Positions 32,209-58,667 of a stretch of DNA of 64,000 bases are shown here, piece after piece. The notes beneath the pieces are model-generated. The model saw only the letters and a program-made list of their open reading frames with translations. It ran no database searches and was not told the DNA's origin. Origin of the DNA: Lachnospiraceae bacterium. GTDB lineage: Bacteria; Bacillota; Clostridia; Lachnospirales; Lachnospiraceae. Made by a program: the position numbers and the translations under genes. Location: assembly GCA_017399445.1 (NCBI GenBank), contig JAFQCM010000125.1:1-64000 (forward strand). The letters are read 5' to 3'. Position 1 is the stretch's first letter. The number at the start of each line of letters is the position of its first letter.

Positions 32209-33342
32209 ATGGTTATTAAGAATGCAAAAGTATATACAGAGGAATTTCTCTTTGAAGAAAAAGATATTTACGTAGAAAATGATGAATTTGCACAACAAGC
32301 TTCAGAAAAGGAAATTGTGTATGCAGATGATTTGTATGCTATTCCGGGACTTGTAGATATTCATTTACATGGCTGTGTAGGGCAAGATTTTAGTGATGGT
32401 GATATAGATGCTGTGCAAAAAATTGCAGAATATGAAGCTTATCATGGAATTACTACCATTATGCCAGCTACCATGTCTCTAAAAGAAAAAGAACTGGTAA
32501 AGGCGGTAAAAACAATTGCTGCTTACAAAAACAGCAGTAAAACCGGAGCAGAAGTTGCAGGGATTTATATGGAAGGTCCTTTCATGTCCAAGGAAAGAAA
32601 AGGCGTTCATAAAGAGGAAAACCTATTGCTACCGGATTTGAAATTAGTAGAAAAACTCCAAAAAGAAGCCAAAGGAAAAATTAAGATTGTAACTGTAGCA
32701 CCAGAATTGTCGGGGGCTATTGATTTTATTAAAGAAAGTAGTAAAAATTACAGGATATCCATTGCTCACACAGCAGCTGGATACGATGTTTCAAAAGAAG
32801 CATTTGCAGCAGGAGCAACCCAGTTAACCCATTTCTTTAATGGAATGGCACCATTTAACCACAGAGAACCGGGAATCATTGGAGCTGCACTAGAAAATGA
32901 TCAGTGTATGGCAGAACTGATTTGCGATGAATTTCATATTCATCCAACAGTAATTAATATGACATTCCGCATTTTTGGAGCAGAAAGAGTGATCTTAGTA
33001 AGTGACAGTATGCGTGCCACCGGAATGCAGGATGGAGAATATACATTGGGAGAACACAATGTAATTGTACGTGATGGGATTGCCAAGTTAAAAGATGGAA
33101 CCCTTGCCGGTTCTACCAGAAATTTAATGGATTGTTTGAAAATTGCGGTAAAAGAAATGAAAATTCCATTAGAAACAGCAGTAAGGGCTGCTACCTTAAA
33201 TCCAGCAGTTGCTGCAGGAATTCAAGACAAATGTGGTACCATTACTTCAGGAAGAAAGGCAAATGCAGTATTTTTAGATAAGGATTTAAATGTGGTAATG
33301 GTACTGCTAAATGGGAAATTGATTCGAAACGACTGGGATTAA
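32209..33342 (+). CDS. nagA: N-acetylglucosamine-6-phosphate deacetylase
   Basis: The 377-residue amidohydrolase has the metal-binding HLHG motif (His52, His54) in LVDIHLHGCVGQDF, IYMEGPFMS (substrate/metal Glu), HFFNGMAPFNHREPG and the catalytic Asp266 in LVSDSMRATG. It deacetylates GlcNAc-6-phosphate in amino sugar use and cell wall recycling. nagB is not adjacent in this window. The gene ends 11 bp before one of the two repeated structured elements. Confidence 0.93.
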   Translation: MVIKNAKVYTEEFLFEEKDIYVENDEFAQQASEKEIVYADDLYAIPGLVDIHLHGCVGQDFSDGDIDAVQKIAEYEAYHGITTIMPATMSLKEKELVKAVKTIAAYKNSSKTGAEVAGIYMEGPFMSKERKGVHKEENLLLPDLKLVEKLQKEAKGKIKIVTVAPELSGAIDFIKESSKNYRISIAHTAAGYDVSKEAFAAGATQLTHFFNGMAPFNHREPGIIGAALENDQCMAELICDEFHIHPTVINMTFRIFGAERVILVSDSMRATGMQDGEYTLGEHNVIVRDGIAKLKDGTLAGSTRNLMDCLKIAVKEMKIPLETAVRAATLNPAVAAGIQDKCGTITSGRKANAVFLDKDLNVVMVLLNGKLIRNDWD

Positions 33343-33353
33343 AAAAGAATTTT

Positions 33354-33536
33354 GTAACAGTTCAGCCATGATATGTGATAAAAGTGAAGTATGCTCGCAT
33401 AAAAAGAAATTTATCACATATCATGAGCGGAACGCCTGTGTATGAGCAAAGGTAGTTATGTAGCAACGGAAAGCATGATAGTGGGACTTTGGGACACCCA
33501 AGGAGTACAGAGTGATGGCGTGGAATGAACTGTTAC
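33354..33536. repeat. Dispersed structured repeat, copy 1 (MITE-like)
   Basis: This 183-bp element begins GTAACAGTTCA and ends with its exact inverted copy TGAACTGTTAC, an 11-bp terminal inverted repeat. Inside, ATGATATGTGATAAA (33368-33382) pairs perfectly with TTTATCACATATCAT (33408-33422), and TTGGG-ACA-CCCAA forms another hairpin near 33488. The sequence is shared along its length with copy 2 at 58481-58667. No ORF longer than a few codons fills it. It lies between nagA and ylxM in both-strand non-coding DNA. Confidence 0.85.
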
Positions 33537-33550
33537 TTAATTTTTAAAGA

Positions 33551-33572
33551 TGTCAAGAAAAAATACTTGACA
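33551..33572. promoter_or_regulatory. Inverted repeat overlapping the ylxM -35 box
   Basis: TGTCAAG (33551-33557) and CTTGACA (33566-33572) are exact inverted repeats; the right arm contains the -35 box TTGACA. It may be an operator or a chance palindrome. Confidence 0.5.
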
Positions 33573-33595
33573 AAGTTACTAGTTCAGTGTATTCT
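33567..33595 (+). promoter_or_regulatory. Promoter of the ylxM-ffh operon
   Basis: TTGACA (33567-33572), a 17-bp spacer and TATTCT (33590-33595) precede the ylxM ribosome site by a few bases. Confidence 0.75.
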
Positions 33596-33611
33596 ATCTA
33601 AGGTGATGCAA

Positions 33612-33956
33612 ATGGAAAGATTTGTTGAGCAGGCGTTATTGTATGACTTCTATGGTGAACTGCTGACAGAAAATCAAAAAAATGTATATGAAGATGTGGT
33701 ACTGAATGATTATTCTTTAAGCGAAGTGGCAGAAGAAAAAGGAATCAGCAGACAGGGTGTACATGATTTGATTAAAAGAACCAATAAAGCATTGGCAGAG
33801 TATGAAGAGAAACTTCATTTAGTAGAAAAGTTTCTCCATATTAAGGAAAAAGTAAGTCAGATTCAAACAACCGTAGAACAAGCTGAACAGATAGAGAAGC
33901 AGGAACTGATTGAAAGAATTGAATCTATTTCAAATGAAATTTTGGAGGAATTATAA
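33612..33956 (+). CDS. ylxM: YlxM/p13-family SRP-associated HTH protein
   Basis: The 114-residue protein starts MERFVEQALLYDFYGELLTE, has a sigma4-like helix-turn-helix (SLSEVAEEKGISRQGVHDLI) and a helical C-terminus. YlxM proteins always precede ffh in Firmicutes and associate with SRP. The frame is open back to 33525, but this part lies over the promoter and the end of the repeat element; AAGGTG at 33600-33605 sets the ATG at 33612. The ffh start follows 2 bp after the stop. Confidence 0.92.
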   Translation: MERFVEQALLYDFYGELLTENQKNVYEDVVLNDYSLSEVAEEKGISRQGVHDLIKRTNKALAEYEEKLHLVEKFLHIKEKVSQIQTTVEQAEQIEKQELIERIESISNEILEEL

Positions 33957-57734: not shown

Positions 57735-58484
57735 ATGAAATTAGTATCATGGAATGTAAATGGTATCAGAGCTTGTATCGGAAAAGGTTTTTTAGAGGTA
57801 TTTGAACAGATGGATGCAGATGTTTTTTGTCTGCAGGAAACAAAATTATCCCAGGGACAGTTGGAATTAGACTTACCAGGATATTATCAATATTGGAATT
57901 ATGCAGAGAAGAAAGGGTATTCTGGAACTGCAATATTTTCAAAAAAAGAGCCGGTTTCTATAAGTTATGGAATTGGAATACCAGAACATGATAAAGAAGG
58001 AAGGGTAATTACAGCAGAATATGAAGAATTCTATTTTGTGACAGTATATACACCAAATTCTCAAAATGAACTGGCAAGATTGTCCTACCGTATGCAGTGG
58101 GAAGATGATTTTTTAAATTATGTAAAAGAACTAGAAAAGAAAAAGCCGGTGATTTATGCAGGAGATTTGAATGTAGCCCATAAAGAAATTGACTTAAAAA
58201 ATCCAAAAACCAATCAAAAAAATGCAGGTTTTACAAAAGAAGAAAGAGAAAAAATGACAAGGGCAATAGAAAGCGGTTTTGTTGATTCCTTCCGTTATTT
58301 TTATCCAGAACAGGAAGGAATTTATTCCTGGTGGTCTTATCGTTTTAAAGCAAGAGAAAAAAACGCAGGATGGCGGATTGATTATTTTATGGTTTCTGAA
58401 AGCTTAAAGGAAAATATGAAATCTGCTAAAATTCATACAGATATTTTGGGGTCTGATCATTGCCCGGTAGAACTTATTATGTAA
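57735..58484 (+). CDS. xth: Exodeoxyribonuclease III
   Basis: The 249-residue protein starts [18 protein letters not shown] and has catalytic Glu35 (CLQETKLS), GDLNVAH near residue 145 and the final [10 protein letters not shown]. It repairs AP sites and 3' blocks in base excision repair. Its TAA stop codon lies inside the left inverted repeat of the second structured element (58481-58667), so the element's insertion likely set the present stop. Confidence 0.94.
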
Positions 58485-58667
58485 CAGTTTCGCCATGATA
58501 TGTGATACAAGTGTATTATGCTCCCATAAAATGCAATTGTATCACATATCATGAGCGGAACGCCTGTATATGAGCAAAGGTAGTTGCGTAGCAACGGAAA
58601 GCAAGATGATAGTGCGACTTTGCGATACCGAAGGAGTACAGAGTAATGGCGTGGGCTGAACTGTTAC
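58481..58667. repeat. Dispersed structured repeat, copy 2 (MITE-like)
   Basis: This 187-bp element matches copy 1 (33354-33536) along its length and has the same ends, GTAACAGTT and AACTGTTAC. The inner stem ATGATATGTGATACAA / TTGTATCACATATCAT is perfect here too; relative to copy 1 one A-T pair is replaced by C-G on both arms, a compensatory change. GTTGC-GTA-GCAAC forms another hairpin near 58595. The left end overlaps the xth stop codon. Confidence 0.85.

Follow-up and report, generated by a model that had tools for sequence, protein, structure and literature searches.

Results

The locus holds two copies of a hairpin-rich intergenic element

Within the window (the entire 64,000-nucleotide stretch of Lachnospiraceae DNA analysed here), an element at positions 33354 to 33536 begins with GTAACAGTTCA and ends with TGAACTGTTAC, exactly as delimited in an earlier note on this DNA. 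This copy 1 lies between the stop codon of nagA and the promoter of ylxM-ffh, while copy 2 lies between an exonuclease-III-like gene and a gyrB/parE-like gene; the gene names are those we presume from the translations and general knowledge. The following features were assigned, with MITE denoting a non-autonomous DNA transposon and R1 a covariance model built from MITEs.

33346..33353, plus strand: left flank AGAATTTT, a possible decayed 8-bp target duplication, matching the right flank at 6/8 positions
33354..33536, plus strand: copy 1, a probable MITE, 183-bp long variant (model R1, 88.6 bits, E 1.7e-18)
33354..33367, plus strand: left terminal inverted repeat GTAACAGTTCAGCC, the same as the ends of the IS66-family element G000:C9:1154-2968
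33367..33425, plus strand: hairpin P2, a 16-bp perfect stem (33367-33382 / 33410-33425) with an apical hairpin around TATGCTCGCATA
33432..33521, plus strand: domain 2 (P3, inner motif, and P4 with two small hairpins)
33432-33436 / 33517-33521, plus strand: P3, ACGCC / GGCGT
within 33432..33521, plus strand: inner motif of domain 2, ATGAGCA ... TTGGGA (consensus TGCGAAT); ATGAGCA..TGCGAAT also occurs in Clostridiales-1 RNA
33446-33451 / 33487-33492, plus strand: P4, GCAAAG / CTTTGG, enclosing two small hairpins
33494..33514, plus strand: insert of ~20 nt within P3, seen in the long variants (both window copies, L010 and L021)
33523..33536, minus strand: right terminal inverted repeat, reading GTAACAGTTCATTC, with 2 mismatches against the left end
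33537..33544, plus strand: right flank TTAATTTT, a possible decayed 8-bp target duplication
58481..58667, plus strand: copy 2, a probable MITE of 187 bp (model R1, 111.6 bits, E 1.1e-23)

The stem of P2 is formed by CATGATATGTGATAAA (33367-33382) and TTTATCACATATCATG (33410-33425); the perfect pairing described earlier is present, at a length of 16 bp rather than 15 bp. Across species the arms of P2 differ with their complementarity kept, i.e. they covary. The predicted fold of copy 1 has an energy of -57.5 kcal/mol, compared to -38.2 ± 3.5 kcal/mol for 200 dinucleotide shuffles (z -5.5). The element has no protein-coding capacity, as had been proposed: no internal ORF of at least 60 aa was found, and a 143-aa ORF at 33525 takes nothing from copy 1 but an upstream ATG, located in its final 12 bases.

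The second copy, expected ~25 kb away, is 88% identical to copy 1 across the entire element. The likeness extends only a few bases beyond the element limits, with unrelated flanks on either side, and neither copy has a perfect target duplication (6/8 and 1/8 flank matches). In window 58395-58484, the exonuclease-III-like gene ends ATG TAA (...PVELIM*), its TAA stop codon being supplied by the GTAA of copy 2.

None of the four other genomes of the genus has the copy 1 insertion 5' of ylxM. An empty site, with both flanks kept and the element missing, was not found among them, as these congeners do not have nagA and ylxM side by side. The two genes, adjacent around copy 1 at window 33077-33782, are located on separate contigs in 4/4 of the other genomes, and a rearrangement may have taken place at copy 1.

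The element belongs to a dispersed family with 8-bp target duplications

The 2.97-Mb, 136-contig draft genome to which the window belongs contains ~40 full or truncated copies of a family whose ends read GTAACAGTTCAGCC...GGCTGAACTGTTAC. A BLAST search of this genome returned 56 matches to the element, and sites resembling GTAACAGTTCAGCC number 91, compared to 3 for a reversed control pattern. The family is not a chance occurrence. It is present in 4/5 genomes of the genus, and among contigs from Lachnospiraceae and related Clostridia, including MAGs, at least 112 carry the right end GGCGTGGGCTGAACTGTTAC, under the names Roseburia, Dorea, Eubacterium, Acetatifactor, Mediterraneibacter and Lachnoclostridium. 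The termini are therefore widespread in the genome itself and in related Lachnospiraceae, and the two doubts raised in the earlier note, that only two copies might exist or that homologous flanks might betray a segmental duplication, do not apply. An exact 27-base pattern had no match in the genome contigs searched because the left arm is lineage-specific. Plasmids yielded one partial match and phages six, the latter in unannotated faecal contigs; these matches were uninformative.

Perfect flank duplications of 8 bp were observed for 47/104 complete elements from many genera, with only 0-2 at each of 4-7 or 9-12 bp. Following removal of duplicates, 41/89 elements retain a perfect 8-bp duplication against 0.56 expected from shuffled flanks. 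The target duplications that the earlier note proposed to look for are found at filled sites across the family, although the window copies themselves are imperfect and lack a clean empty site. Insertions are nearly all intergenic and occur in both orientations, often at ~10 bp or closer to a stop codon.

The length distribution of the elements peaks at 146 and 164 bp. Further size classes comprise an 86-bp palindromic form and minimal elements of 31-65 bp, part of them with perfect duplications. Elements of 31, 38 and 59 bp (L069:1127-1157, L067:11515-11552 and L186:462-520) consist of barely more than two inverted ends, yet are flanked by perfect 8-bp duplications; they either move in this form or arose by internal deletion. 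Several other arrangements were seen. One MITE copy with a perfect duplication (L196:329-550) contains the unit AGAACGCCCGTCAATGAGC four times in tandem. Another MITE type, with GTAACAGTTCAG-type ends that are the same and a different interior (AGGTCTGTGCAT..ATGCACAGACC), is present at L095:1360-1495 and L146:6346-6476. A separate dispersed repeat of the same genome, GTTACTGTTTACAGT..ACTGTAAACAGTAAC with TTTTAAATGGGCTGAAAT / AAAATGCATCTGCGATGCAT segments, is located beside or within MITE copies at L010, L016, L020, L024 and L043.

A candidate partner transposase has the same ends

Elsewhere in the same genome, a 505-aa IS66-family transposase is encoded between two exact, inverted copies of GTAACAGTTCAGCC that are 1815 bp apart (G000:C9:1154-2968), and is the sole large ORF of its element. 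This protein matches PF03050 with 76.8 bits (cut-off 23.1) and scores 157.9 against the NCBIfam IS66 model NF033517, below the cut-off of 180. The full-length transposase element is single-copy in this genome, its flanks do not match, and it has only ~14-16 terminal bases in common with the MITE. In another genus (L226), a second IS66-type gene, a transposase relative, adjoins exact GTAACAGTTCAGCC ends.

Transposition has been observed for ISDge4, a member of the ISBst12 group of IS66 with the end GTAACTGCTCAGCA, a single ORF and a repeat of 8 bp (PMC12898284). Its end is identical to GTAACAGTTCAGCC at 11/14 positions. The window family resembles this group in its GTAACnGnTCAGCn-form, GTAA-type ends and 8-bp direct repeats, as well as in the single transposase ORF of the candidate autonomous element, which encodes an IS66-family protein. 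Unlike ISBst12-group elements, the window element lacks a transposase gene; its interior of 150 bp is unrelated and rich in hairpins.

The structured core is related to the Clostridiales-1 RNA

An alignment of 20 diverse elements reveals a common fold, in which a closing helix made by the inverted ends is followed by the long hairpin P2, tipped by an apical GCTTGC-like hairpin, and then by domain 2. In domain 2, P3 (ACGCC/GGCGT) leads into an ATGA/GAAT step that contains tandem G.A mismatches; P4 (GCAAAG/CTTTGC) comes next, together with a pair of small hairpins. Double changes that keep pairing were found in 13/44 predicted pairs. Reading of the L109, L146 and L171 sequences indicates that these lineages have CAGAC/GTCTG in place of P4.

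An Rfam search at gathering thresholds gave no matches in the window. Matches to the microRNAs MIR1886 and MIR4371 were rejected, since these reflect merely a long-hairpin resemblance on the minus strand. The Clostridiales-1 model (RF01699) does align over its full length, with 17.1 bits for the window copy, 36.4 for L142, 39.0 for L151 (plus strand) and 42.5 for L121, the best IS66-type relative; all fall short of the gathering score of 48. A 43.5-bit match at L151 was discarded as chimeric with a neighbouring fragment, and the apparent hybrid at this locus is really two neighbouring elements with no fusion. Conversely, model R1 matches Clostridiales-1 copies in register (L278, E 4.5e-7; L265, 1.1e-5; L266, 1.5e-4). 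The ordered pair ATGAGCA..TGCGAAT is present in 73/83 MITEs and 25/46 Clostridiales-1 copies, with none on the reverse strand and none in shuffles.

These cross-matching models and the ordered motif pair show that the window-family core is a distant relative of the Clostridiales-1 RNA (Weinberg et al. 2010, PMC2864571), with which it has in common a long hairpin with a GCTTGC-type tip and a following domain in which ATGAGCA..TGCGAAT closes a small hairpin. The two differ in their terminal repeats, in target duplication length and in a third 3' hairpin of RF01699 (AGGATTG..CAATCC) that is absent from all IS66-type elements inspected. As both the score and this third hairpin are missed, the window element does not belong to RF01699. 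A further hairpin module (~GTGCT..CCAGTGG..TTTAGCACCGACCGAAGCGGAGCGTAGA) occurs in loops of both kinds of element (IS66-type L111 and L148; Clostridiales-1 type L328, L333-L345 and L347).

Clostridiales-1 copies form a second MITE family

RF01699 matches were detected in 112/200 Lachnospiraceae genomes (one per genus), often with at least 13 matches per genome. The Clostridiales-1 copies examined (L249-L318) have inverted ends, GATRCCAGGGTCAAAA and TTTTGACCCCAACATC, and their flanks show a 7-bp duplication in 28/48 cases and an 8-bp duplication in 7/48. In copies chosen by ends alone (n=20), this pattern was partially repeated, five of them having a 7-bp duplication and one an 8-bp duplication. 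The target duplications of L249-L318 prefer A-N5-T. Judged by these features, bona fide Clostridiales-1 copies in Lachnospiraceae are MITEs too. The two end types and their duplications thus define two MITE families with different ends and one common structured core: an IS66/ISBst12-type with 8-bp duplications, and a GATRCCAGGGTC type with mostly 7-bp duplications, corresponding to the Rfam Clostridiales-1 'RNA'.

No transposase for the Clostridiales-1 ends was found among end pairs in the Lachnospiraceae sequences searched. One pair 1.87 kb apart (G198:C64) was considered as an autonomous partner and rejected, as it holds ordinary genes and no transposase. Rfam files Clostridiales-1 as 'Gene; sRNA', and in Weinberg et al. 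2010 the motif appears in a table only (PMC2864571). Our literature search retrieved no paper describing the Clostridiales-1 motif as mobile, none that connects MITEs or IS66 to RF01699 or to Lachnospiraceae, and none reporting a core common to two such MITE families.

Discussion

The element is short and non-coding, with inverted ends shared with an autonomous transposon (G000:C9:1154-2968), 8-bp duplications at the level of the family, and dispersed copies in unrelated flanks. The 8-bp duplications and the IS66-family transposase located between the same 14-bp ends therefore make it very probable that the element belongs, as a MITE, to the ISBst12 group of IS66 and is mobilised in trans. Correia/NEMIS, RUP and Nezha are further bacterial MITEs of the same general kind. 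The likeness to bacterial MITEs such as MITEAba12 (PMC6382973) extends to the short non-coding sequence with inverted ends and target duplications, to the many intergenic copies and to a transposase acting in trans. The window family differs from such elements in having a conserved interior that covaries across genera and also occurs in a second MITE family with other ends.

From the shared ends and the ISDge4 parallel, we infer mobilisation by a G000:C9-type transposase as the best-supported mechanism. A single-ORF DDE transposase from such an element would recognise GTAACAGTTCAGCC at both ends and move the short element, with a staggered cut at insertion giving rise to the 8-bp duplication. 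The interior, comprising the long hairpin P2 and the second domain (P3/P4 with small hairpins), is a conserved module with compensatory variation between species. What the core does we likewise infer; our preferred reading is a module exchanged between MITE families, with its self-complementarity kept as DNA.

The earlier note had suggested a mobile element, an RNA gene, or both. The mobile half is borne out by the many copies, the 8-bp duplications and the IS66 transposase with the same ends; for the other half we see no sign of a transcribed gene. If the element were above all an RNA gene, or acted at the RNA level, its core would be transcribed and folded, with the inverted ends acting as a closing helix. 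The architecture conserved through compensatory changes (13/44 predicted pairs), the similarity to RF01699 in register in both directions (L121, 42.5 bits; R1 to L278, E 4.5e-7) and the occurrence of ATGAGCA..TGCGAAT on one strand only are in keeping with this. Folding of a plus-strand RNA predicts that G.T mismatches in stems exceed A.C mismatches. This is not favoured for the window family, where the core stems contain 14 G.T and 17 A.C distinct contexts (p 0.72), a symmetry that speaks for the DNA level over a single transcribed strand. Clostridiales-1 copies do display an excess (19 G.T to 5 A.C, p 0.007), which may be partly ascertainment because the model used to pick them rewards G.U; the set picked by ends only gives 7 to 2. 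Furthermore, the family has genuine transposon ends, accompanied by 8-bp duplications, and orientation in tandem gene pairs is unbiased (16 and 22, heuristic ORF calls). A simple consensus scan found neither an internal promoter nor an intrinsic terminator in copy 1, so that it lacks the promoter and terminator of its own expected of an sRNA gene; the sole good promoter, TTGACA-17-TATTCT, lies 3' of the element. We consider an RNA gene unlikely and a DNA element the simpler reading for the window family; the common core may have an RNA role.

A domesticated regulatory repeat of REP/ERIC-like character, with hairpins acting in cis on neighbouring transcripts (stability, or insulation of nagA from ylxM-ffh), strikes us as similarly improbable. 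Its appeal lies in the intergenic placement close to stop codons, the stop codon contributed by copy 2 to the upstream gene, and the position of copy 1 between the nagA stop and the TTGACA-17-TATTCT promoter; it is countered by the lack of both orientation preference and intrinsic terminator, and by the four other genomes of the genus, none of which has the ylxM-upstream insertion. A segmental duplication, or debris of recombination, formed without transposition could account for the imperfect duplications at both window copies, and the nagA/ylxM adjacency that congeners do not keep could place copy 1 at a rearrangement point. It is nevertheless contradicted by the exact 8-bp duplications across the family, and the unrelated flanks of copies 1 and 2 along with ~40 dispersed copies render it highly implausible.

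With the MITE reading as the preferred one, a further and more tentative proposal is that a single structured, RNA-like core is carried by two or more MITE families whose ends are unrelated, with its own selected function at the nucleic-acid level aiding persistence in over half of the sampled Lachnospiraceae genera. We regard this as possible rather than likely.

An abundant, unannotated repeat of gut Lachnospiraceae is hereby placed in a known transposon group, with a candidate partner enzyme. As RF01699 copies bear target duplications and the ends of transposons, an RNA gene need not follow from their copy number and covariation, and the RF01699 annotation should be revisited. The presence of a common core under different ends should allow three cases to be told apart: a core selected as RNA, one selected as single-stranded DNA, and palindromic DNA that is simply self-correcting.
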